NCBI RefSeq assembly: GCF_002283555.1
Contig: NZ_MVOI01000002.1
Span: 186,001-250,000, forward strand
Origin: Rubrivirga sp. SAORIC476
GTDB lineage: Bacteria > Bacteroidota > Rhodothermia > Rhodothermales > Rubricoccaceae
DNA: 64,000 nucleotides
Reading direction: 5' to 3'
Every line of letters begins with the position of its first letter. The first letter of the stretch is position 1. Below are positions 1,932 to 45,399 of this stretch, one piece after another. The notes below the pieces were generated by a model. It made no database searches. It was not told the DNA's origin and was given only the letters and a program-made list of their open reading frames with translations. Position numbers and translations under genes: made by a program.

Positions 1932-2417
1932 ATGCGCTCGCTCGTCCTTCTGACCGTCGGAACCGCCGCCCTGGTGCTCTCGCCCTCTGCGATGGGACAG
2001 GAGGCCCGCGCCGACTCGACGGAGTCGTTCGCGTACGGCACGGTGCTGACGTACCGCGCGATGCTCGCCCAGAGCCGGGAGTTGCGCCTGATCCCCACGG
2101 ACCCGACCGTCCGACCCGACGACTCCGATCCGTTTATGGGCATCGGCCGGCTGGTCGTCGACGAGACGCTGTCGCGGACGGGGAGCTACTTCTACGACGT
2201 CTTCTACCGACTGTGGCAGCCTCCGGAGGGCGCACGGTTCGTGAGCGTGATCCTGTCGGAGCAGCCCCTTCCGGGCCAGGGCACCCTCGTGTCGGTTCGC
2301 CTCGACGGCGAGTTGGTGTTCCAGTCCCGACTGTCGCCCCGGGAGGAAGACGCCGAGGCCCTGGCACAGCAGGCGGTCGGCTTCACCCTCCGCCGTTTGC
2401 CGCAGGGCGACGGGTGA
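1932..2417 (+). CDS. csgE: Curli secretion chaperone CsgE
   Basis: The 161-residue protein has a signal peptide (cleavage expected after SAMGQ, about residue 22). Its core matches CsgE: MGIGRLVVDETLSRTG, then the family signature SYFYDVFYRLWQPP (compare DFYxxFxxxW), a stretch of beta strands (FVSVILSEQPLPGQGTL, LVSVRLDGELVFQSRL) and a C-terminal helix. In E. coli, CsgE is a periplasmic specificity factor that caps the CsgG pore and guides curlin subunits to it. It is first of csgE-csgF-csgG, 64 bp before csgF and on the same strand, the same gene order as in other Bacteroidota curli loci. Confidence 0.88.
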   Translation: MRSLVLLTVGTAALVLSPSAMGQEARADSTESFAYGTVLTYRAMLAQSRELRLIPTDPTVRPDDSDPFMGIGRLVVDETLSRTGSYFYDVFYRLWQPPEGARFVSVILSEQPLPGQGTLVSVRLDGELVFQSRLSPREEDAEALAQQAVGFTLRRLPQGDG

Positions 2418-2481
2418 TGCGACGGGCCTTGCCCGCCTATGCCCCCACCCGTATCGTCCCCCACCCCACTCTTGCCTGTCC

Positions 2482-2898
2482 ATGCGTCGCCTCTTCTCCG
2501 CCGCCCTCGCGCTCGGGCTCTTCGCCGTCGCGGCTCCCGCCTCTGCCCAGCAGCTGGTCTACCAGCCGACCAACCCGGCGTTCGGGGGCTCGCCGCTGAA
2601 CTACAACTGGCTCCTCCAGTCCGCGCAGCTGCAGAACCAGTATGAGGACGAGGGGGGCGCGTCTCAGAACTCGACGATCAACAACTTCGCCGACACGCTC
2701 CAGCGCCAGATCCTGAATCAGCTCTCGCGAGAGCTGATCACGAACCGGTTCGGCGACCTCGATCTGACCCAGCCGGGCACGTTCACGCTGGGGGACTTCC
2801 AGATCGACATCACTCCGGGTCTCGACGGCGTCTCGATTCGCCTCTTCAACCTGCTTACCGGGGAGGAGACCATCGTGTCCATCCCCAACAGCCTCTAG
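2482..2898 (+). CDS. csgF: Curli assembly protein CsgF
   Basis: The 138-residue protein has a signal peptide ending near APASAQ (residue 22). The mature N-terminus QLVYQPTNPAFGGSPLN is the CsgF hallmark: in E. coli this segment inserts into the CsgG pore and forms a second constriction. It is followed by a Gln/Asn-rich helix (LLQSAQLQNQYE), and the C-terminal half is beta-rich (FGDLDLTQPGTFTLGDFQIDI). CsgF couples secretion to nucleation at the outer surface. The gene is 11 bp before csgG and starts without a Shine-Dalgarno sequence after a CT-rich leader. Confidence 0.9.
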   Translation: MRRLFSAALALGLFAVAAPASAQQLVYQPTNPAFGGSPLNYNWLLQSAQLQNQYEDEGGASQNSTINNFADTLQRQILNQLSRELITNRFGDLDLTQPGTFTLGDFQIDITPGLDGVSIRLFNLLTGEETIVSIPNSL

Positions 2899-2909
2899 CT
2901 CTCTCGTCT

Positions 2910-4277
2910 GTGCGCGCTCTCCTCCTCGCCGTCGTCTCGCTGACTCTGTTCGCAGGGTGCTCGGCCCGATTCCTCCAGCCCTACCACGTGGAGTCGCCAC
3001 GGGTGGCCGCGCCGCGGACCACCGTCGCCGACCTGCTGGATGCCGTGCCAGCGCCCGTCGACCCGGTGGTGGTAGCGGTGTACCGGTTCCGGGACCAGAC
3101 CGGCCAGTACCGGGCTCTCGAAAACCTGTCCACCTTCTCCACCTCGGTGACGCAGGGGGCGACGAGCATCCTGATGCGCGCCCTGGAACAGTCTGGGTTT
3201 TTCGTCCCCATCGAGCGCGAGGGGCTGTCGAACCTCCTCAACGAGCGTCAGATCATCTCCTCGACCCGTCAGCAGTACACCGGCCCGGAGGGTGAAGGGC
3301 TTGGGCCGCTGCCTCCGCTCCTGTACGCGGGGGTCCTGCTGGAAGGCGGCATCGTGGGCTACGATTCGAACGTGCTGACCGGTGGTGCGGGCGCCCGACT
3401 CCTCGGGGCCGGCGGGAGCGGCCAGTTCCGGCAGGATCAGGTGACGGTGTACCTCCGCGCCGTCTCCGTGCAGAACGGCCGCGTGCTGAAGTCGGTCTAC
3501 ACGACCAAGACGCTCATCTCGCAGAAGCTCGACGGGGGACTCTTCCGCTTCGTCGACACGGACGCGCTGCTGGAGACCGAGGCGGGCTACTCCACCAACG
3601 AGCCGCCCGTGCTGGCGGTCACGGCAGCCATCGAGGAGGCCGTCATCGCCCTGGTGGTCGAGGGCTCGCGGGATGGGCTCTGGGCCTTCCAGGGGCCGAA
3701 CGACTCCAACACGCAGGACTTCCTCTCGGCGTACGATGCGCGAGCGGCCGAGGACGCCTCCCGCGACCTCTATGACCGGGCGCCTCTCGACGCGTCCAGC
3801 GACGGGCTCGCCGTGGGGCTGTCGGCGGGGATCGGGCGGATCGAGAGCGATTATGCCTCCCCGGGCATCCAGCCCGTCGGCGCGGTCTCGCTGGACTACC
3901 CGATCGGCAACGGGGTTTCGGTGGGCGTTCGCGGAGAAGGCGGGCTGATCGACGTGAACGGCACCGGCGAGCGGTTCGGAGCCGGTGCGCTCACCCTCCG
4001 CTCCCGCCTCGTCCCGTCTGCGCAGACATCGCCGACGTTCACCGTCGGGCTGGGCGGGCTGTTCTCCCCCGACGTCCCCAACTCGCCCTCCTCCTACCTG
4101 TATGCGACCGCGCTGGCGGGCATCGAGAGCCGGATCCGCCCCTCCCTCGGACTCTTCCTCGAGGCGGGCGTCGACTATCCGTTCTACGAGGGTCTCGACG
4201 GCCTTCAGGGGTCCGGCAGCGTCAACGACAACATCTGGGTCGGCCGAGGGGGCTTCGTCTTCTACACATCGTTCTAG
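2910..4277 (+). CDS. csgG: Curli secretion pore CsgG with a C-terminal extension
   Basis: This is the 455-residue outer membrane lipoprotein that forms the curlin export channel. The lipobox LFAGC places the lipidated cysteine at residue 17. Residues about 50-275 match the CsgG domain, with VYRFRDQTGQYR, VTQGATSILMRAL, FFVPIEREGLSNLLNERQ and the LLYAGVLLEGGIVGYDSN region. The protein is much longer than E. coli CsgG (277 residues): after a linker near 275-300 there are about 150 more residues made of alternating beta strands that end in an aromatic residue (VFYTSF), like a small beta barrel or beta sandwich. I chose the GTG at 2910, directly at the signal peptide. csgE and csgF lie upstream, and a 1-kb gap separates it from the curlin subunit genes. 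Confidence 0.92.
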   Translation: MRALLLAVVSLTLFAGCSARFLQPYHVESPRVAAPRTTVADLLDAVPAPVDPVVVAVYRFRDQTGQYRALENLSTFSTSVTQGATSILMRALEQSGFFVPIEREGLSNLLNERQIISSTRQQYTGPEGEGLGPLPPLLYAGVLLEGGIVGYDSNVLTGGAGARLLGAGGSGQFRQDQVTVYLRAVSVQNGRVLKSVYTTKTLISQKLDGGLFRFVDTDALLETEAGYSTNEPPVLAVTAAIEEAVIALVVEGSRDGLWAFQGPNDSNTQDFLSAYDARAAEDASRDLYDRAPLDASSDGLAVGLSAGIGRIESDYASPGIQPVGAVSLDYPIGNGVSVGVRGEGGLIDVNGTGERFGAGALTLRSRLVPSAQTSPTFTVGLGGLFSPDVPNSPSSYLYATALAGIESRIRPSLGLFLEAGVDYPFYEGLDGLQGSGSVNDNIWVGRGGFVFYTSF

Positions 4278-4702: not shown

Positions 4703-5134
4703 GTGCTACGCACGGTACGCCTCTCTCAGAGGCTGCTGACACATCCAGACACCCTGGCCCTCTGAGCGGCTTCCGCTCCCACCACCTGAGGCACCACGGG
4801 CGACGCCACTCCGGCTATGCCTGTCCTTCCCAACGCCTCGACCTCCATGCCCGCTCGCCCGACATCCGAAGCTTCGACGGCTTCGAGGGGTTCTGAGGCC
4901 ACCGGGCGCCGTGCGGCGTGGACGCGCCCGATTCCAGAAGGCGCTGTGGCTTCTTCGGATCGTGTGATCAGAGGACGCGCCCCGTCCCGTCGGACGGCAG
5001 CTTCGACATGGACCGGCTCGTCGCGCCCGGTCGCCTCCGAGAGGGCTCGGGCGCACATGGACCGCTCTGGAGCACGAGGCTCCGATGAACCTGCTCGCTG
5101 TTTCCCTCCTGGGCGCTACCCTGCCTGACCCCGG

Positions 5135-5162
5135 GCGGGAGGCCGGTAACACGTCCTCCCGC
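5135..5162 (+). promoter_or_regulatory. GTAAnA-loop hairpin 1, before the first curlin gene
   Basis: An 11-position stem with one mismatch (GCGGGAGGCCG / CGTCCTCCCGC) encloses the loop GTAACA. Similar hairpins with other stem sequences and a GTAACA or GTAAGA loop occur before the next two curlin genes. It lies 107 bp before the ATG at 5270. No T run follows, so it is not a typical intrinsic terminator. Confidence 0.5.
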
Positions 5163-5269
5163 TCCTTCCCATACCCGGCGTCTTTGCCGAGGGGTCCCCA
5201 CCCCATGGGATCTGCGGACCTCCGCATCCTTCAGCCTTCGGGCACTCTTCCCCACTCTCCTTGGTAGCC

Positions 5270-7453
5270 ATGCGCAACCTCCTTCCCTTCGCTATCGCGT
5301 TTGGCCTCGTCGGCACCGCGAGCGCGCAGAACACGTCCTCGACTGTCCAGTCGGGGTCGGGTCACACGATTAGCATCGTGCAGAATCCGTTCATGAACGA
5401 CGCCTCCGTCGATCAGTCCGGCCTCGACAACATCGCCGACATTCTCCAGACCGGCGCCAACGTCGCCGAAGTGGAGCAGGGCGGTACGGCCGACAACGCC
5501 GACATCGACCAGGACGGCACGGGCAACGAAGCCGTCGCGCTCCTGAGCACCTTCTTCACGGGTGGCGGCGACATCGACGCGGTCATCAACCAGCTCGGCA
5601 ACGACAACTTCGGCCGGGTCTTCAACGACGGCGTGAACGTCGACGCGACGATCAACCAGACCGGCGACAACAACCTCGCTGACGTCGTCTCTGGCCTCAA
5701 CTCGGCGGACGTCGACATCCTCGCGACCGTCGACCAGCTCGGCAACGGGAACGCGGCCTTCGTCGGCCAGACTGGTACCAACCAGCTCTCGACGATCGTC
5801 CAGACCGGCGACGACAACACGGCGGACGTCTCCCAGTCGGGCGACAGCAACGTCTCGACGATTGACCAGACCGACACGAACCACCTCGCCATCACGTCAG
5901 ACGGCGGCTCGAACCAGATCGGCACGATCACGCAGTCGGGCGACGCCAACCAGGCGCGCACCCAGCTCGGCACGTTCTTCGGCGCCAACAACGACGGCAC
6001 GATCACGCAGTCGGGTGACACCAACGTCGGTGACATCTTCAATGACGGCGACAACAACGACGCGACGATCACGCAGTCGGGCTCCGGCAACTACGCCGAG
6101 GTGATCGCTGGCTTCTCGACGACCGACGCCAACAGCGTCGCGACCGTGGACCAGACCGGCACGGGCGACTTCAGCTCGTCGTTCCAGCAGGGAGAGGGCC
6201 AGGACGCCCAGATCTTCCAGAACGGTGACAACGACATTGCGGAGACCGATCAGGACGGTACCGGCAACCTCGCCATCATCGACCAGGGCGCGTCGTTCTC
6301 GCCGCTGTCCAACAGCTACGCGGGGATCGGCCAGAACGGTCGCACCAACCAGGCGCTCGTCCTCCAGGGCCCCGGTGATGCGCTCAACGGCCTCGTCCTC
6401 CAGACGGGTGACAACGGCGTCTCGGTCGTCGATCAGTTCGGCACGAACCAGACGGCCACGCTGACCCAGGTCTCCGGCGACGGCAACCAGTCGCAGGCCC
6501 GTCAGTGGGGTGGCGACGGCAACACCGGCGACGCCACGCAGACCGGCGACGGCAACCTCGCGCTGATCGACCAGTTCGGCGACACCGGCGCGGCGAGCAT
6601 CACGCAGGACGGCGACGGCAACGGCGCCCTCGTCGCTCAGGATGGCGCGGATCAGTCCGGCTCGGTGTCCCAGACCGGGACCGCCAACGACGCCACCCTC
6701 GAGCTCGGCCTGTTCTTCGGTGATGGCAACAGCTCCACCGCCGTCCAGGAGGGTACCGGTAACACGGCATACCACAGCATCGACGGCACGACGAACACGT
6801 CGAGCTCGACGCAGTCCGGCACCACCAACGACGCGACCATCCTGGTGGCTGCACTCGTGAGCGACACCAACAACGACGCGTCGGTCGAGCAGAACGGCTC
6901 GGACAACGTGGCGTTGATCGTCCAGTCGGGCTCGGAGCACACCGCCTCGATCAAGCAGGTCGGCGCCCGGAACAACTCGACCCTTACCCAGGACGGGTTC
7001 AACAACTCGGCGGCGGATCGCACCACCCGCGGTGATGACAACGTCCTGACGATCGATCAGGTGGACAGCGGCAACGCCGTCATCTACCACATCTGGGGTG
7101 ACCGCAACAGCGCGGCCATCACGCAGAGCGGCAACGACAACCGCATCCGCATCGACGGCCGTCGCAACACGACCATCCCGGTGCTCGGTGTCGATGACAA
7201 CGTGATGACGATCGACCAGTTCGGCGGCGACCGCAACACGATCAACGGCTGGATCGAGGACGGTGCCTCCGGCAACACGATCACGATCACGCAGAACGGC
7301 TCCGACAACAGCGTGAACGGCGGTCCGTTCGGCCCGGGCCTCTACGTTGAGGGCAACCTCAACACGATCACGATCAGCCAGACGGGCGTCGGCCACTCGG
7401 CGAACGCGGCCGCGCTCGGCGACGGCAACACCGTCACGATCACGCAGAACTAA
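5270..7453 (+). CDS. Large curlin-repeat protein (major curli subunit candidate)
   Basis: The 727-residue secreted protein has a signal peptide ending in GTASAQ (about residue 20). The rest is dozens of curlin half-repeats of about 11 residues of the type xxATIxQxGxxN (for example DATINQTGDNN, GTITQSGDAN), which fold as the strand-turn-strand units of the curli amyloid. It is several times longer than E. coli CsgA (about 150 residues). The last 180 residues are different: they contain ADRTTRGDDN, HIWGDRN, DGRRNTT and GPFGPGLYVEG, a module shared almost unchanged with the curlin at 8257-9312. A TTG at 5261 is possible, but the ATG at 5270 begins the signal peptide directly. It should be exported through CsgG. 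Confidence 0.88.
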   Translation: MRNLLPFAIAFGLVGTASAQNTSSTVQSGSGHTISIVQNPFMNDASVDQSGLDNIADILQTGANVAEVEQGGTADNADIDQDGTGNEAVALLSTFFTGGGDIDAVINQLGNDNFGRVFNDGVNVDATINQTGDNNLADVVSGLNSADVDILATVDQLGNGNAAFVGQTGTNQLSTIVQTGDDNTADVSQSGDSNVSTIDQTDTNHLAITSDGGSNQIGTITQSGDANQARTQLGTFFGANNDGTITQSGDTNVGDIFNDGDNNDATITQSGSGNYAEVIAGFSTTDANSVATVDQTGTGDFSSSFQQGEGQDAQIFQNGDNDIAETDQDGTGNLAIIDQGASFSPLSNSYAGIGQNGRTNQALVLQGPGDALNGLVLQTGDNGVSVVDQFGTNQTATLTQVSGDGNQSQARQWGGDGNTGDATQTGDGNLALIDQFGDTGAASITQDGDGNGALVAQDGADQSGSVSQTGTANDATLELGLFFGDGNSSTAVQEGTGNTAYHSIDGTTNTSSSTQSGTTNDATILVAALVSDTNNDASVEQNGSDNVALIVQSGSEHTASIKQVGARNNSTLTQDGFNNSAADRTTRGDDNVLTIDQVDSGNAVIYHIWGDRNSAAITQSGNDNRIRIDGRRNTTIPVLGVDDNVMTIDQFGGDRNTINGWIEDGASGNTITITQNGSDNSVNGGPFGPGLYVEGNLNTITISQTGVGHSANAAALGDGNTVTITQN

Positions 7454-7480
7454 CGTTCTTCCGGTCCCTCGGGACCTCCT

Positions 7481-7513
7481 GGGCTGGCGACCGGTAACAC
7501 GGTCGCCAGACCC
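7481..7513 (+). promoter_or_regulatory. GTAAnA-loop hairpin 2, between first and second curlin genes
   Basis: A perfect 10-bp stem (CTGGCGACCG / CGGTCGCCAG) encloses the loop GTAACA and is extended by GGG/CCC across a one-base bulge. A pyrimidine-rich tract follows, without a T run. It lies 28 bp after the stop of the first curlin and 41 bp before the next ATG. It could tune readthrough or mRNA processing between the major and minor subunit genes. Confidence 0.55.
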
Positions 7514-7553
7514 ATTTCTCCTCGCCGGTTCCCATCCTTATCCGGCCTTCTCT

Positions 7554-8096
7554 ATGCGCACTTTCCTCCTTCTTACTGCGGCCCTGGCGGCTCCCCTGGT
7601 CTCGGCCCAATCGAGCGAGACCTACATCCAGCAAGCTGGGGTGTCTCTGGGTCAATCCGCGCAGGACATCGCGCTGACGAGTGCCGTCGCCGGCCAGGCC
7701 CTGGATCGCTCGCTCGTCGGAACGGGGTTCGATTCCAACACCGCGTCCGTCTCGGTCCAGGGCGACGGCAACGTCGCTCTCGTGAGTCAGCGCGGCTACG
7801 GCAACCGACTCGGCCTCGACATCACCGGTTCGTTCAACGAAGTCGATCTGTACCAGCGGGGCGTCGACAACCTTCTCCTCGCCGACATCACCGGCGACGG
7901 CAACCGCCTCGTCGACTCGTTCCAGGCTGGCAGCGACAACGTCTACCGTCTTCGCCTCGACGGGGTCGACAACACCGAGCACTCGATCCGTCAGTACGGC
8001 CCCGGGAACACGGCCTCGCAGGTCGTCGGCGCAGGGATGACGCCCGCCTCGATCGAGCAGTACGGAGGCGCCGAGATTTCCATCATTCGTCGGTAG
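7554..8096 (+). CDS. CsgB-like minor curlin (nucleator candidate)
   Basis: The 180-residue secreted protein has a signal peptide (MRTFLLLTAALAAPLVSAQ). Residues about 60-175 form five or so curlin repeats with QGDGNVALVSQRGYGN, LYQRGVDN, FQAGSDN and IRQYGPGN. Compared with the two large curlins it is short and richer in arginine within the repeats, and it ends in a basic tail (SIIRR). Small size and a basic C-terminus are features of CsgB, the membrane-bound nucleator of E. coli curli, which also ends in a basic repeat. It sits between the two large subunit genes, so it probably shares their transcript. The CsgB role is inferred from these features; a second minor subunit is the alternative. 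Confidence 0.75.
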   Translation: MRTFLLLTAALAAPLVSAQSSETYIQQAGVSLGQSAQDIALTSAVAGQALDRSLVGTGFDSNTASVSVQGDGNVALVSQRGYGNRLGLDITGSFNEVDLYQRGVDNLLLADITGDGNRLVDSFQAGSDNVYRLRLDGVDNTEHSIRQYGPGNTASQVVGAGMTPASIEQYGGAEISIIRR

Positions 8097-8117
8097 ATCC
8101 CGACAGGCTTCAGGGTT

Positions 8118-8140
8118 GCGACGCCGGTAAGACGGATCGC
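8118..8140 (+). promoter_or_regulatory. GTAAnA-loop hairpin 3, before the third curlin gene
   Basis: The stem GCGA-CG-CCG / CGG-A-TCGC has an internal loop and encloses GTAAGA. The loop, the closing CCG/CGG pairs and the outer GCGA/TCGC agree with hairpin 2, while other stem positions differ. It lies 116 bp before the ATG at 8257. Confidence 0.45.
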
Positions 8141-8256: not shown

Positions 8257-9312
8257 ATGCGCTCACTACTCACTCTCACGCTCGCGCTCGGCCTCACTGG
8301 GGTCGTCCACGCACAGAGCACATCTACGACGATCCAGTCTGGTACTGGCCACACCATCGACCTGAACCAGTCGGGTTCGAACGACGCCTACGTCGAGCAG
8401 TCCGGCATGGACAACACGACTGACATCGACCAGGACGGCGCCATCAACGATGCCACCTCGATTCAGTCCGGATCCAACAACCTGGCTGTGATCGATCAGG
8501 GCGTTACCCTCCCCGGCCTCGGCGGTAGCTCGGCGACGGTGGTCCAGAGCGGCTCGACGAACGACGGCCGTGTCGCTCAGGGCGACGGGGCGAGCCTCGT
8601 CGGCTTCGTCGACCAGGCCGGTGACAACGGGTTCGCCACGGTGAACCAGTCCGGCCTTGGCCACATGGCCTCGGTGGAGCAGCTCGCCGGAACCAACAAC
8701 ACTGGCACGTCCAACCAGGACGGCGGCGCTTACAACGAGTCTGGCATCGTCCAGGACGGTGACGACAACGCTGCGGACATCCTCCAGACCGGCAACGAGC
8801 ACACCGCTACGGTGAAGCAGGTCGGCGACCGCAACGTGTCCACGATCACGCAGGACGGCTTCAACAACCGGGCTGCCGACCGCACCACCCGCGGCAACGA
8901 CAACGTCCTGACGATCGACCAGATCGACAGCGACAACATCGCCGTGTCGCACATCTGGGGCGACCGCAACACCATCACGGTGACGCAGAGCGGCAACAAC
9001 CAGGAGGTCGATCTCGATGGCCGTCGCAACACGACGGCTCCGGTGCTCGGCGTCAACGACAACGTGATCGACTTCGATCAGGCGGGCGGTGACAACTTCA
9101 TCGGTGGCTGGCTCGAGGATGGTGCCTCCGGCAACATGATCACGGTTTCCCAGGACGGCAGCAACAACTCCGTCTCCGGTGGTCCCTTCGGACCGGGCCT
9201 CTACGTGGAGGGTGACATGAACACCATCACCATCACGCAGACTGGCGTCGGCAGCACCGCCAACGCGGCGGCGCTGGGTGACGGCAACTCGGTGACCATC
9301 ACCCAGTTCTAG
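8257..9312 (+). CDS. Second large curlin-repeat protein
   Basis: The 351-residue secreted protein has a signal peptide (MRSLLTLTLALGLTGVVHAQ). Residues about 20-170 are curlin half-repeats such as HTIDLNQSGSND, TTDIDQDGAIND and FATVNQSGLGH. Residues about 175-351 repeat the C-terminal module of the 727-residue curlin, with TTRGNDNVLTIDQ, HIWGDRN, DGRRNTTAPVLGVNDN, GPFGPGLYVEG and a final NSVTITQF. The two genes clearly arose by duplication, and the protein differs mainly in having fewer N-terminal repeats. I start at the ATG at 8257, at the signal peptide, not at upstream in-frame starts. A strong terminator follows, so this ends the curlin transcript. Confidence 0.87.
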   Translation: MRSLLTLTLALGLTGVVHAQSTSTTIQSGTGHTIDLNQSGSNDAYVEQSGMDNTTDIDQDGAINDATSIQSGSNNLAVIDQGVTLPGLGGSSATVVQSGSTNDGRVAQGDGASLVGFVDQAGDNGFATVNQSGLGHMASVEQLAGTNNTGTSNQDGGAYNESGIVQDGDDNAADILQTGNEHTATVKQVGDRNVSTITQDGFNNRAADRTTRGNDNVLTIDQIDSDNIAVSHIWGDRNTITVTQSGNNQEVDLDGRRNTTAPVLGVNDNVIDFDQAGGDNFIGGWLEDGASGNMITVSQDGSNNSVSGGPFGPGLYVEGDMNTITITQTGVGSTANAAALGDGNSVTITQF

Positions 9313-9330: not shown

Positions 9331-9374
9331 ACGAGCCGACGGTCTGTGATTCACGGCCGTCGGCTCGTTCATTT
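9331..9374 (+). terminator. Rho-independent terminator after the curlin genes
   Basis: A perfect 12-bp inverted repeat (ACGAGCCGACGG / CCGTCGGCTCGT, 14-nt loop) ends at 9368 and runs into TCATTTT. A second, shorter palindrome (9380-9396, CCGGCCT / AGGCCGG) follows before the next gene. Confidence 0.8.
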
Positions 9375-9419
9375 TCTGCCCGGCCTGCCAGGCCGGTTCT
9401 GCTCCCCTTCCCTGCTGCG

Positions 9420-9794
9420 ATGATGCGTCTGCTCGTGCTGCTGGGTGCTCTGTTCGCGTGTATGTCCTCCCCATCGCCGCTCCCGAGCCGGTCGGCTCAG
9501 ATCCACGTGGAGCGAGGCGTCACCTACGTTCTCTCTGCCGTCGCCGAGGCGGATGGACCGGCGCGTGGCGCATACGACATCGAGGTGAGGCGCCAAGGCG
9601 CGGCCGGATCGTCCGTTGCTCGTCAGAGCGGCGCGTTCGAGCTTCTGGACGCCGGGACGCGCACGCTGTCGACCCAGTCCGTGTCGGCGGCTCCAGGCGA
9701 CCACATCGTCGTGTCGTTGACCGTCACATGGGCCGACGGGCAGATCTCGCGGGACGCCCTGGACGAGACGGTCGGAGACGCTCCGGCGCGATAA
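9420..9794 (+). CDS. CsgH-like curli chaperone
   Basis: The 124-residue secreted protein has a hydrophobic signal (LLVLLGALFACMSS). The mature part is all beta and resembles CsgH, the CsgC-like inhibitor of premature curlin polymerisation known mainly from Alphaproteobacteria. The family-like elements are GAYDIEVRRQGAAGSS followed by VARQSGAFEL, then a strand pair ending in VVSLTVTWADGQ. It has no CxC pair as in E. coli CsgC, which also fits CsgH. If correct, it would act in the periplasm to keep curlins soluble before export. It lies directly after the curlin terminator. ATG at 9420 and 9423 are both possible. The call rests on remembered family patterns, not on an alignment. Confidence 0.65.
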   Translation: MMRLLVLLGALFACMSSPSPLPSRSAQIHVERGVTYVLSAVAEADGPARGAYDIEVRRQGAAGSSVARQSGAFELLDAGTRTLSTQSVSAAPGDHIVVSLTVTWADGQISRDALDETVGDAPAR

Positions 9795-42622: not shown

Positions 42623-44287
42623 CTAGTTCTGCGTGACGGTCGCCGAGTTGCTGACGGCCGTCTGGTTGATGGTCGACGTGTTGTAGCTCCCGCCCTGCGA
42701 CAGCGTCGCCGAGTGGCCGACACCGTCCTGGATGATCGTGGACAGGCCGTAGTCACCCATCTGGGTGGAGAGCGCCACGTTGCCCGAGGCGGTCGCGTCG
42801 ATCAGCGAGTTCGTCTGCGAGATGAAGCTGTTGTTGCCGGTGCCGCTCTGAACCGAGGTGGCGTCCATGAGCCGCGCGCTCTGCGTGTCATTCCCCCCGA
42901 ACTGAACGATGGTGCTCGAATGGTCCGAGCCCGCCTGTTCGATGGAGGCGGTCGACACCAGCGGGTCGGGGCCACCGGCCGGGTTCGGCGCGTTGTTGAC
43001 GCTCTGCGTGATCGAGGCGAACCCGTAGTCCCCCATCTGATCCACGAGCGCGGACGACAGCTGGCCGCTCTGCGTGATGGTGCTCTCGTTGAAGGCGCCA
43101 CTCTGGTTCACCCCCGCGGCGAGCGACCCGATGTCCCCGGACTCGTTGGCGAAACCGGACTGCACCGCCGTCGACACGTTCACGTCTCCCGACTGGAAGA
43201 CCACCAACTCGCCGGAGGAGCCGGTCTGTGTCGCGAACGACGAGTTCGAGTCACCCGTCTGGAGAATCAAGGCTTCCTGCCCGTTCGTCTGGTACGCGGT
43301 CCCAGCGGTCCGCCCCTGGGTGACCTCAGAGGCGTTGTAGGACCCTTCCTGGGTCACATCCGCGATCGCGTTGAGCGCGTTCTGGGTCACGTTGGACGTG
43401 TTGAACTGGCTGCCAGACACGCCATTGCCCTGGCGGACGGTCGCGGTGGCTCCAGCGTCATCCTGCTGCGTCACGAACGAGGTCTGGTTGTTCCCCGTCT
43501 GGTCGACAGTCGCCATCGCATCCTCAGCGGACTGGGTCAGGGTCGAGGCGTGGTTGTCGCCGTCCTGGGACACGGCCGCCGTGTTGTCCTGCCCATTCTG
43601 CGTGAGCGCTGACGAGTTGAAGTTGCCATCCTGGAGGACGGAGGCGTCCAGACGCGCGTTGTTCGTCGAACTGGTCTGGGTGACGTTCGACGCGTTGTGG
43701 TCCCCCAGCTGATCCACGTTCGCGGTCGAGCGGTTGCCGCCCGCACCACCGGTCACTTCCTGGATCACGGTCGACCCGTTGAAGTTGCCCGTCTGATCGA
43801 CGTTGGTCGTGGCATACGTCGAGGGGTCCTGGTCCACCAGGGAGGTGTTGTTGTCGCCTGTCTGGATCACCCCCGCGGCCGAGCCATTCAGCGGGTTGCC
43901 GACCTGGCTGCTGTTGCCTCGCTGCAGAACCTGCGAATCGTTGAAGTCGCCCGTCTGCCGGACCTCCGCGCCGAGCGACGTTCCCGTCTGCTCGACCAGC
44001 GAGGCGTTGTCACCGTTCTGGATGACCTCCGCCTCGTTGCGGTCTGACCCGGCCTGCGACACCGTCGACGATGCGCCGGCGCCATCCTGAGTGACGCGCA
44101 CCCGGTTCATGCGTGAGTCATTGGTCCCGTTGCCCGACTGGGTCACGGTGCTGGTAGCGGCAGATCCGTTTTGATCGACGACTGCATCGTTGTGTTGGTT
44201 CGACTGGGTAATCGTCGACGTGTTGCTCTGTGCGCTGGCCGCTCCTGCGAGACCGAGTGCGAGGGCGAGAACGAGGAAGTACCTCAT
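42623..44287 (-). CDS. Stand-alone large curlin-repeat protein
   Basis: The 554-residue secreted protein has a signal peptide (LVLALALGLAGAASAQ). The mature part is curlin half-repeats throughout (STITQSNQHNDAVVDQNGSA, SQAGSDRN, TVDQTGNNQTSFV, TINQTAVSNSATVTQN at the end). It lacks the special C-terminal module of the two large curlins at 5-9 kb. Ser and Thr are frequent next to the Asn (NASNVTQ, FNSSALTQ). It should also depend on CsgG, but is encoded 33 kb away from that operon, facing the end of the polysaccharide locus. An AT-rich upstream region (44376-44439) suggests separate and possibly strong or condition-dependent expression. Confidence 0.87.
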   Translation of the reverse strand: MRYFLVLALALGLAGAASAQSNTSTITQSNQHNDAVVDQNGSAATSTVTQSGNGTNDSRMNRVRVTQDGAGASSTVSQAGSDRNEAEVIQNGDNASLVEQTGTSLGAEVRQTGDFNDSQVLQRGNSSQVGNPLNGSAAGVIQTGDNNTSLVDQDPSTYATTNVDQTGNFNGSTVIQEVTGGAGGNRSTANVDQLGDHNASNVTQTSSTNNARLDASVLQDGNFNSSALTQNGQDNTAAVSQDGDNHASTLTQSAEDAMATVDQTGNNQTSFVTQQDDAGATATVRQGNGVSGSQFNTSNVTQNALNAIADVTQEGSYNASEVTQGRTAGTAYQTNGQEALILQTGDSNSSFATQTGSSGELVVFQSGDVNVSTAVQSGFANESGDIGSLAAGVNQSGAFNESTITQSGQLSSALVDQMGDYGFASITQSVNNAPNPAGGPDPLVSTASIEQAGSDHSSTIVQFGGNDTQSARLMDATSVQSGTGNNSFISQTNSLIDATASGNVALSTQMGDYGLSTIIQDGVGHSATLSQGGSYNTSTINQTAVSNSATVTQN

Positions 44288-45399
44288 GGGATGTTGGGGA
44301 AGGAGTGAAACGATGCCCGGAGTGGGCGGAGAGTGCGGCGGTCGCCGCAGACCCTAGGGCCAGAAGACCCGAAGGAAAAACATGTGTTTTTTAGTTTCTC
44401 AATTACATACAATATGAAAAGAATACAGCTGTCATATACGACCCTCTACATGCCTACCTGACAGCACGCTTGAACCCGCCAAAACACAGGTGGAGCGTCG
44501 GCCGCCTCAGGTCTCGCTAGTCACTGCTCTAGGCAAGCCTCTTGGGACACCGCCCGGGGTGCGTTCCGGACTCTGCCCCTGTCCACAGCGGGTACAGATC
44601 TCGACCGCCCGCGTCGTCCGCAGGCCACCCGCCAGGGACTCCGCTCCGATGAGCACCTTCGCGATGGCAACCCGTGAGATCCCAGCGGGGCCTCTACGCC
44701 CGCCAACGCGCTCATTCGCCCGGACTCTGGCAGGGGAGCGCAGCCCAAGTACGCGAACTCGATTGGGACCTCCGGCTCCTGATGCGATCGCACGGGGGCT
44801 TTCGGATGTCCGCTGGTATGGGTCGAGGACGACGGACGCCCCTGGAGCGCTGCGCGGGACCAGCCATGAACAATCGGCCCTCACCTCAGCTTGAACTTGG
44901 CTCAACATATGGCGACAACTGACTGCGCCATGTTCTTCGATTGACGTTACACGCATGGAGGCCTGGCACCTAGAAATAGGAGACCGCGCGGACGCGGATG
45001 GAAGCCTCAGGTGGTGGTAGCGCGGAGCGCTCTGAGCATGGCCCTTCAGGGCCCTTTGCAGATCTGAAGTCGTAGACAACTCACACTGCTCAGTGGCCAC
45101 ATAGATACGCGGCATGCCCCATGCGCGCTAGCCCCCTCTCACCACCGAAGCCCGGCTGAGCCGCCGAATCGGCCCAGCACGCGCGTATCGACTAGTATTC
45201 ATTTCCTATACCGGGCAATCCCCCACTCCCATTCGTCCACTTGAAGGGAGCCAACCACGACACTAACGGACTCTTATTTGACTGTTGATCCTTCTGTCCT
45301 GGTCTGGTTTCTCTGCGAGGGATGCTCCGATCGACGCGGCACCGAGTCACCGTCGGCCGGTGGCGCAGCCGTTCCCGAGTCGACCGACCCTGCGTGCCT
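44288..45399. other. 1.1-kb region without recognisable genes
   Basis: Between the curlin gene and the end of the polysaccharide operon I see no convincing gene. The frame on minus from 45115 to 44507 has no family resemblance, no signal and a base composition unlike coding DNA here. The region holds a strongly AT-rich segment next to the curlin gene (44376-44439), a palindrome GGCCCT-TC-AGGGCC near 45045, and a second AT-richer stretch at 45180-45290 that may contain the operon end or a promoter. It may be a remnant of deleted genes. Confidence 0.55.
44376..44439 (-). promoter_or_regulatory. AT-rich promoter region of the stand-alone curlin gene
   Basis: By my count only 16 of these 64 bases are G or C, far below the surroundings. 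It contains the inverted repeat AAAAACA-TG-TGTTTTT (44376-44391) and starts about 90 bp before the curlin ATG. It may bind a regulator or a nucleoid protein. Confidence 0.5.

Follow-up and report, generated by a model that had tools for sequence, protein, structure and literature searches.

Hairpins with a GTAAnA loop lie between the curlin genes of Rubrivirga curli operons, where they may set the ratios of the subunit mRNAs. In the four Rubrivirga genomes, with operons delimited by their short gaps, the element is present at 9 of the 9 clear curlin-curlin junctions and at 0 of the 5 operon-final curlins. The initial annotation had described the hairpins as preceding curlin genes; the ATG of the next curlin does follow, but all copies with an upstream curlin sit 4-48 nt past its stop codon, which makes the element intercistronic and more than a plain 5′ feature. 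The reading that we prefer, in which the GTAAnA hairpins are intercistronic stem-loops that set subunit mRNA ratios via a 3′-5′ decay block and/or leaky internal termination, has in our judgement an even chance of being right.

The GTAAnA hairpins of the window

The window analysed here is a stretch of 64,000 nucleotides from Rubrivirga sp. SAORIC476, and its curli genes (Table 1) resemble the csgBAC/csgDEFG system of E. coli in comprising csgE, csgF, csgG and curlin-repeat proteins. Curli-type amyloids require an excess of the major subunit over the nucleator, together with matched secretion. To our knowledge no conserved intergenic hairpin family has been described in the E. coli curli operons, and a search of the literature available to us for stem-loops between csgB and csgA found no paper. 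In a survey of curli systems, Bacteroidetes were without csgD, with one exception (PMC3521004). A protein encoded directly past the curlin array, at window 9420-9794, showed sub-threshold similarity to the curlin chaperones CsgH/CsgC.

Table 1. Features of the curli locus and of the stand-alone curlin gene, in window coordinates. L012, L015 and L016 each denote a curlin locus, one from each of three sister genomes within Rubrivirga.
Feature	Position	Strand	Details
csgE, csgF, csgG	1932-4277	+	csgE 1932-2417; csgF 2482-2898; csgG 2910-4277
32-nt motif 5′ of the first curlin	4760-4791	+	CTCTGAGCGG-CTT-CCGCTCCCACCACCTGAGG
Hairpin 1, GTAACA loop	5133-5164	+	loop 5146-5151; orthologues L012:7009, L016:4841, L015:6556
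Structured leader, hairpin 1 to major-curlin ATG	5165-5269	+	short hairpins in series and a GGGAYY linker; kept in two sister genomes, partly in others
Major curlin gene (Curlin_rpt)	5270-7453	+	727 aa
Hairpin 2, GTAACA loop, intercistronic	7481-7513	+	loop 7494-7499; 28 nt past the major-curlin stop (7453), 43 nt ahead of the CsgB-like curlin ATG
CsgB-like short curlin	7554-8096	+	180 aa
Hairpin 3, GTAAGA loop, weaker stem, intercistronic	8118-8140	+	loop 8127-8132; 18 nt past the CsgB-like curlin stop, 113 nt ahead of the next curlin ATG
Third curlin	8257-9312	+	351 aa
Operon-final hairpin past the third curlin, other loop	9332-9377	+	stem 9332-9342/9357-9367, T-rich tail; probable intrinsic terminator; read directly
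Hairpin 3′ of the stand-alone curlin, GTCACC loop	42559-42586	-	stem GTCGGCGGCCG/CGGCCGCCGAC, then TCGTTCGTTTCT; model R2 E = 1.8e-4; probable terminator
Stand-alone curlin gene	42623-44287	-	554 aa
Diverged second copy of the 32-nt motif, upstream of the stand-alone curlin	45005-45036	-	

The three hairpins near the window curlin genes were found where the initial annotation had put them, and its distances of 40-120 bp before a curlin ATG agree with the measured 107, 43 and 113 nt for hairpins 1, 2 and 3. Its statement that none is followed by a T run was also borne out, with 2-4 T in the 8 nt past the stem, and an intrinsic-terminator scan reported 0 of the 3. Folding against dinucleotide shuffles gave z = -3.0, -5.4 and -0.3, respectively; hairpins 1 and 2 are significant alone, while hairpin 3 has a broken stem and is identifiable only via its relatives. 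The pyrimidine tract that follows resembles the usual region ahead of secreted-protein starts in this DNA, for example that of csgF (80% pyrimidine), as far as the noisy gene calls allow. When the window was searched against Rfam at curated thresholds, the hairpins matched no known family and a tRNA was the only match.

Within the 4.48-Mb genome the core CCGGTAAnACGG is matched exactly at three sites: the hairpins account for two, and the third is inside curlin coding sequence at 6756. The looser pattern S-N8-S-GTAAnA-S-N8-S matched 65 sites genome-wide, only three of which can pair at 9 or more of the 10 stem positions, namely those at 5136 and 7484 and one on contig C15. The chance that two of three such sites fall into the approximately 400 nt of curlin gaps is about 6e-9 (3 x (400/8.96e6)^2), a post hoc figure that takes account of position alone.

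Placement at curlin junctions and covariation of the stem

Beyond the window, Rubrivirga copies were located at 9375 and 7009 of L012, at 9763, 7837 and 6556 of L015, at 7193 and 4841 of L016 and at 7791 of L060, the second curlin locus of one sister genome. Their loops are GTAACA, GTAAGA, GTAAAA and once GTAATG. Stems are GC-rich and have 9-12 pairs in most copies, where an intrinsic terminator needs at least 5-6, and copies with an upstream curlin have folding energies of -13 to -29 kcal/mol. Internal copies are U-poor, with 2-5 T in 8 nt, and a T run follows 1 of 11 copies, L015:6556, where it reads TTTTT. At 3 of the 5 operon-final curlins we found a hairpin with another loop and a T-rich tail (window 9332-9377, window 42559 and L060 9205).

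Hairpin 1 lies in a part of the locus that differs between the genomes. In the three sisters its place is the junction between a minor curlin and the major curlin; in the window the minor curlin is absent (4792-5130), and the flanking elements are kept on both sides. BLASTN against the sisters aligned both flanks, at 4773-4840 and 5131-5225, and a search between 4792 and 5130 for a remnant of the minor curlin gave none that was convincing. Judged by synteny only, loss of the minor curlin from the window genome is probable. Given the extra minor curlin upstream in the three sisters, hairpin 1 would also be intercistronic in origin.

The initial annotation had read the conserved loop and the changed but still pairing stems as the mark of a structured RNA under selection, and had proposed a covariance model with a test for covariation. 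In the alignment of ten copies, CGGTAA and the closing CG were invariant in 10 of 10, and the stem had two-sided changes at 4 pairs and 90% of its cells paired, a percentage biased upward in that the sites were partly picked for pairing. The covariation score was 0.337, as against 0.197 for shuffles and no more than 0.161 when slid; 0 of 500 shuffles reached 0.337, making the covariation significant, with moderate weight given that the 10 sequences are related and were partly picked in this way. Compensatory changes were seen within one junction type, that from major to CsgB-like curlin, as A-U versus G-C and U-A versus C-G. The covarying stems and the invariant loop, linked to curlins and recurring in related genomes, uphold the reading as a structured RNA under selection. 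A GNRA tetraloop formed by GUAA and closed within the hexaloop was rejected as the general fold, as its G-C closure is possible for GTAACA and not for GTAAGA; to judge from its letters, GUAAnA could adopt a GNRA-like fold with extruded bases.

Range of the element and associated sequences

Covariance model R2, trained on the Rubrivirga copies including hairpin 3, was searched against the whole of its own genome and gave five significant matches, followed by a gap to E = 2. Three of these are the window hairpins, among them hairpin 3 at E = 1.6e-5, which had itself served to train the model; the other two are a site on contig C15 and the hairpin 3′ of the stand-alone curlin. Seven weaker matches (E > 0.001) were inspected and rejected as ordinary terminators or as lying inside coding sequence. 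The stand-alone curlin had been said to lack the hairpin, which is correct for its 5′ side and incorrect in that the GTCACC-loop hairpin lies 3′ of its stop; the stem of this hairpin is very similar to those of the GTAAnA hairpins and its tail is T-rich. The C15 site (L059 7608-7648, minus strand) has a GTAACA loop on a different stem and is flanked on one side by a gene encoding a type IX secretion tail and on the other by a lipoprotein-like gene. Nearly all own-genome copies are at curlin ends, but with this one strong copy between non-curlin genes the element is not confined to curlins.

Among 245 genomes of the class, true GTAAnA copies were found in the four Rubrivirga genomes only, so that the anticipated recurrence near curlins in related genomes was seen in 4 of 4 Rubrivirga genomes and the GTAAnA form stops at the genus. 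Marginal matches in two genomes outside the genus (G227 and G228) were dismissed as GC-rich chance, with differing loops (GTAA with a longer stem, and GGAC). We also examined 35 curli loci (L068-L102) of other Rhodothermota, Balneolota and Bacteroidota. Of the tandem-curlin gaps outside the genus, 17 of 22 fold with z < -2 (mean z = -3.4); among 89 co-directional gaps of other kinds the share is about 13% (mean z = -0.4), with p = 3e-8, a value that is optimistic given crude gene calls and the relatedness of some loci. The hairpins of these curlin gaps usually come soon past each curlin stop, have diverse loops and in many cases lack a T run; in the sister genus, a hairpin with TTTTT occupies the junction equivalent to that of L015:6556. 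On these predicted folds, the junction hairpin is general for tandem curlins, and its GTAAnA loop is particular to Rubrivirga.

Two further sequences accompany the curlin arrays. The 32-nt motif upstream of the first curlin has the consensus CTCAGAGCGG-n-CCGCTC-CCACCACCTGAGG, in short form CTCAGAGCGG..CCGCTC..CACCACCTGAGG, and when 60 genomes were searched for this pattern, six matches were obtained, all 5′ of curlin arrays, with a single match at each curlin locus. They come from five members of the family, four Rubrivirga and one of the sister genus; none was found away from curlin arrays among these 60 genomes. As 127 of 500 shuffles reached the observed score for pairing within the motif, pairing is weakly supported and the motif may be an operator. 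The second sequence is the leader that runs from hairpin 1 to the major-curlin ATG, and which together with hairpin 1 aligned by BLASTN to L012 (E = 5e-10) and L016 (E = 1e-5). The four main loci have leaders of nearly constant length (107, 111, 113 and 114 nt), and that of L060 measures 126 nt. By eye, a sequence similar to the 3′ part of the leader is present before the stand-alone curlin (44288-44361, minus strand) and also in the sister genus. The second curlin locus of a sister genome (L060 7007-9250) adjoins accD as in the window; besides the 5′ motif it has a junction hairpin with a GTAAGA loop and, at its end, a terminator with TTTTT.

Comparison with known operons and alternative explanations

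In SRPS operons, stem-loops stand at the 3′ ends of abundant cistrons (PMC4423207), where they shield the cistron ahead of them against 3′ exonucleases and were shown to fix the proportions of cellulosome subunits (PMC4423207; in E. coli also, PMC10667835); 28 of the 33 SRPS stem-loops of C. cellulolyticum are without a U run, and their dG ranges from -6.6 to -31.8 (PMC4423207). The curlin-junction hairpins are likewise stable stem-loops just 3′ of an in-operon cistron. As in the cellulolyticum cip-cel operon (PMC4423207), they are intergenic, lie 3′ of chosen cistrons for an extracellular multi-subunit assembly, mostly lack a U run, have similar folding energies and are orthologous between species; unlike there, a single loop recurs unchanged at all the Rubrivirga junctions, and the assembly encoded is an amyloid fibre, in Rhodothermota. 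The internal intrinsic terminators of ABC-importer operons in cellulolytic clostridia also have long GC-rich inter-cistron stems with weak U tails, and no conserved loop is reported for them in the accessible part of that source (PMC9045158). Processing and its effects were measured in cip-cel, and termination was tested in the ABC-importer operons; for the Rubrivirga element both are predictions from sequence.

Since placement, stem strength, weak U tails and the type of protein assembly match the SRPS stem-loops, we favour a ratio-setting role, and among the options of the initial annotation we judge "processing sites that set subunit ratios" the most likely here. With a hairpin closing the 3′ side of every curlin cistron but the last, endonucleolytic cleavage, or RNA polymerase stopping at part of the hairpins, would be followed by shielding of the upstream curlin mRNA by the stem-loop from 3′-5′ exonucleases, and upstream and downstream cistrons would thereby reach unequal levels. 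The hairpin ahead of the approximately 110-nt structured leader may, in addition, serve as a cap at the 5′ side of the major-curlin mRNA once this has been processed. What we infer is the cleavage, the change in mRNA levels and any role of the loop. The weak hairpin 3 and the C15 copy between non-curlin genes speak against such a role.

Leaky termination on its own, in which polymerase stops at a fraction of passes and less downstream curlin is made, with the junction hairpins as terminators of weakened U tract and the operon-final hairpins as the full-strength version, predicts much the same anatomy as decay protection, and sequence cannot separate the two. The TTTTT past L015:6556 and at the same junction in the sister genus fits termination equally well as decay protection, the 3′ hairpin of the stand-alone curlin joins a very similar stem to a T-rich tail, and in the ABC-importer operons internal terminators with long GC-rich stems and U-poor tails set ratios (PMC9045158). 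Most tails, however, have 2-4 T in 8 nt and often read TTCCC, and the operon-final hairpins, which are the expected terminators, are without the GTAAnA loop; we regard this account as possible but doubtful. Neither termination nor decay protection needs an invariant loop, so the invariance of the loop falls outside both accounts. It would be explained if an RNA-binding protein read the GUAAnA loop and controlled processing, read-through or translation of the curlin mRNAs, as a protein-binding or antitermination site. The loop is constant over paralogous junctions whose stems vary, is present at non-final junctions and absent from final ones, and is kept as GTAACA on another stem in the C15 copy; boxB and similar GNRA-like penta-/hexaloops, likewise short hairpins with a conserved purine-rich loop that opens and closes with G...A, are recognised by proteins (PMC12550061). 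Unlike boxB, the Rubrivirga element comes without an N-like protein and without a phage context, the resemblance being one of loop sequence only (PMC12550061). There is no candidate protein, the loop is restricted to the genus although junction hairpins are wider, and shared ancestry could keep it, all of which makes a protein site unlikely.

Shared ancestry as the whole explanation, with an array grown by duplication of gene plus hairpin, an inherited loop and hairpins that are ordinary mRNA ends, draws on the C-terminal region common to curlin paralogues (73% identity between two window curlins) and on hairpins at equivalent junctions. We consider it improbable, as stems have altered with pairing kept and the loop unaltered across C-terminal divergence down to about 37-50% identity, and one copy is at an unrelated locus. 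An element acting at the DNA level, such as a cruciform, a recombination site or a mobile palindromic repeat expanding the curlin array, would account for inverted repeats at gene-array junctions, but it is hard to credit: with about five significant genome copies, nearly all at curlin ends, the element is not repetitive, and at every curlin junction it points the same way with respect to transcription.

For the preferred reading, ratio-setting intercistronic stem-loops, hairpins of this kind are known from other operons, but a version specific to curli and with a fixed loop seems not to have been described. A bolder proposal, to which we give little credence, is that the GUAAnA loop is a signal for a dedicated RNA-binding factor that would flag all curlin junctions but the final ones, either for read-through or for cutting and protection, and, with the 5′ motif and the leader, would form a curli RNA programme replacing CsgD-type control in Rhodothermota. 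The hairpins also make up a compact and clean kit of parts with which the stoichiometry of operons could be tuned. The junction element, together with the wider trend of 3′ hairpins at tandem curlins in Balneolota and Rhodothermota, provides a directly testable mechanism and bears on how bacteria outside the Enterobacteriaceae set the ratios of their curli subunits.
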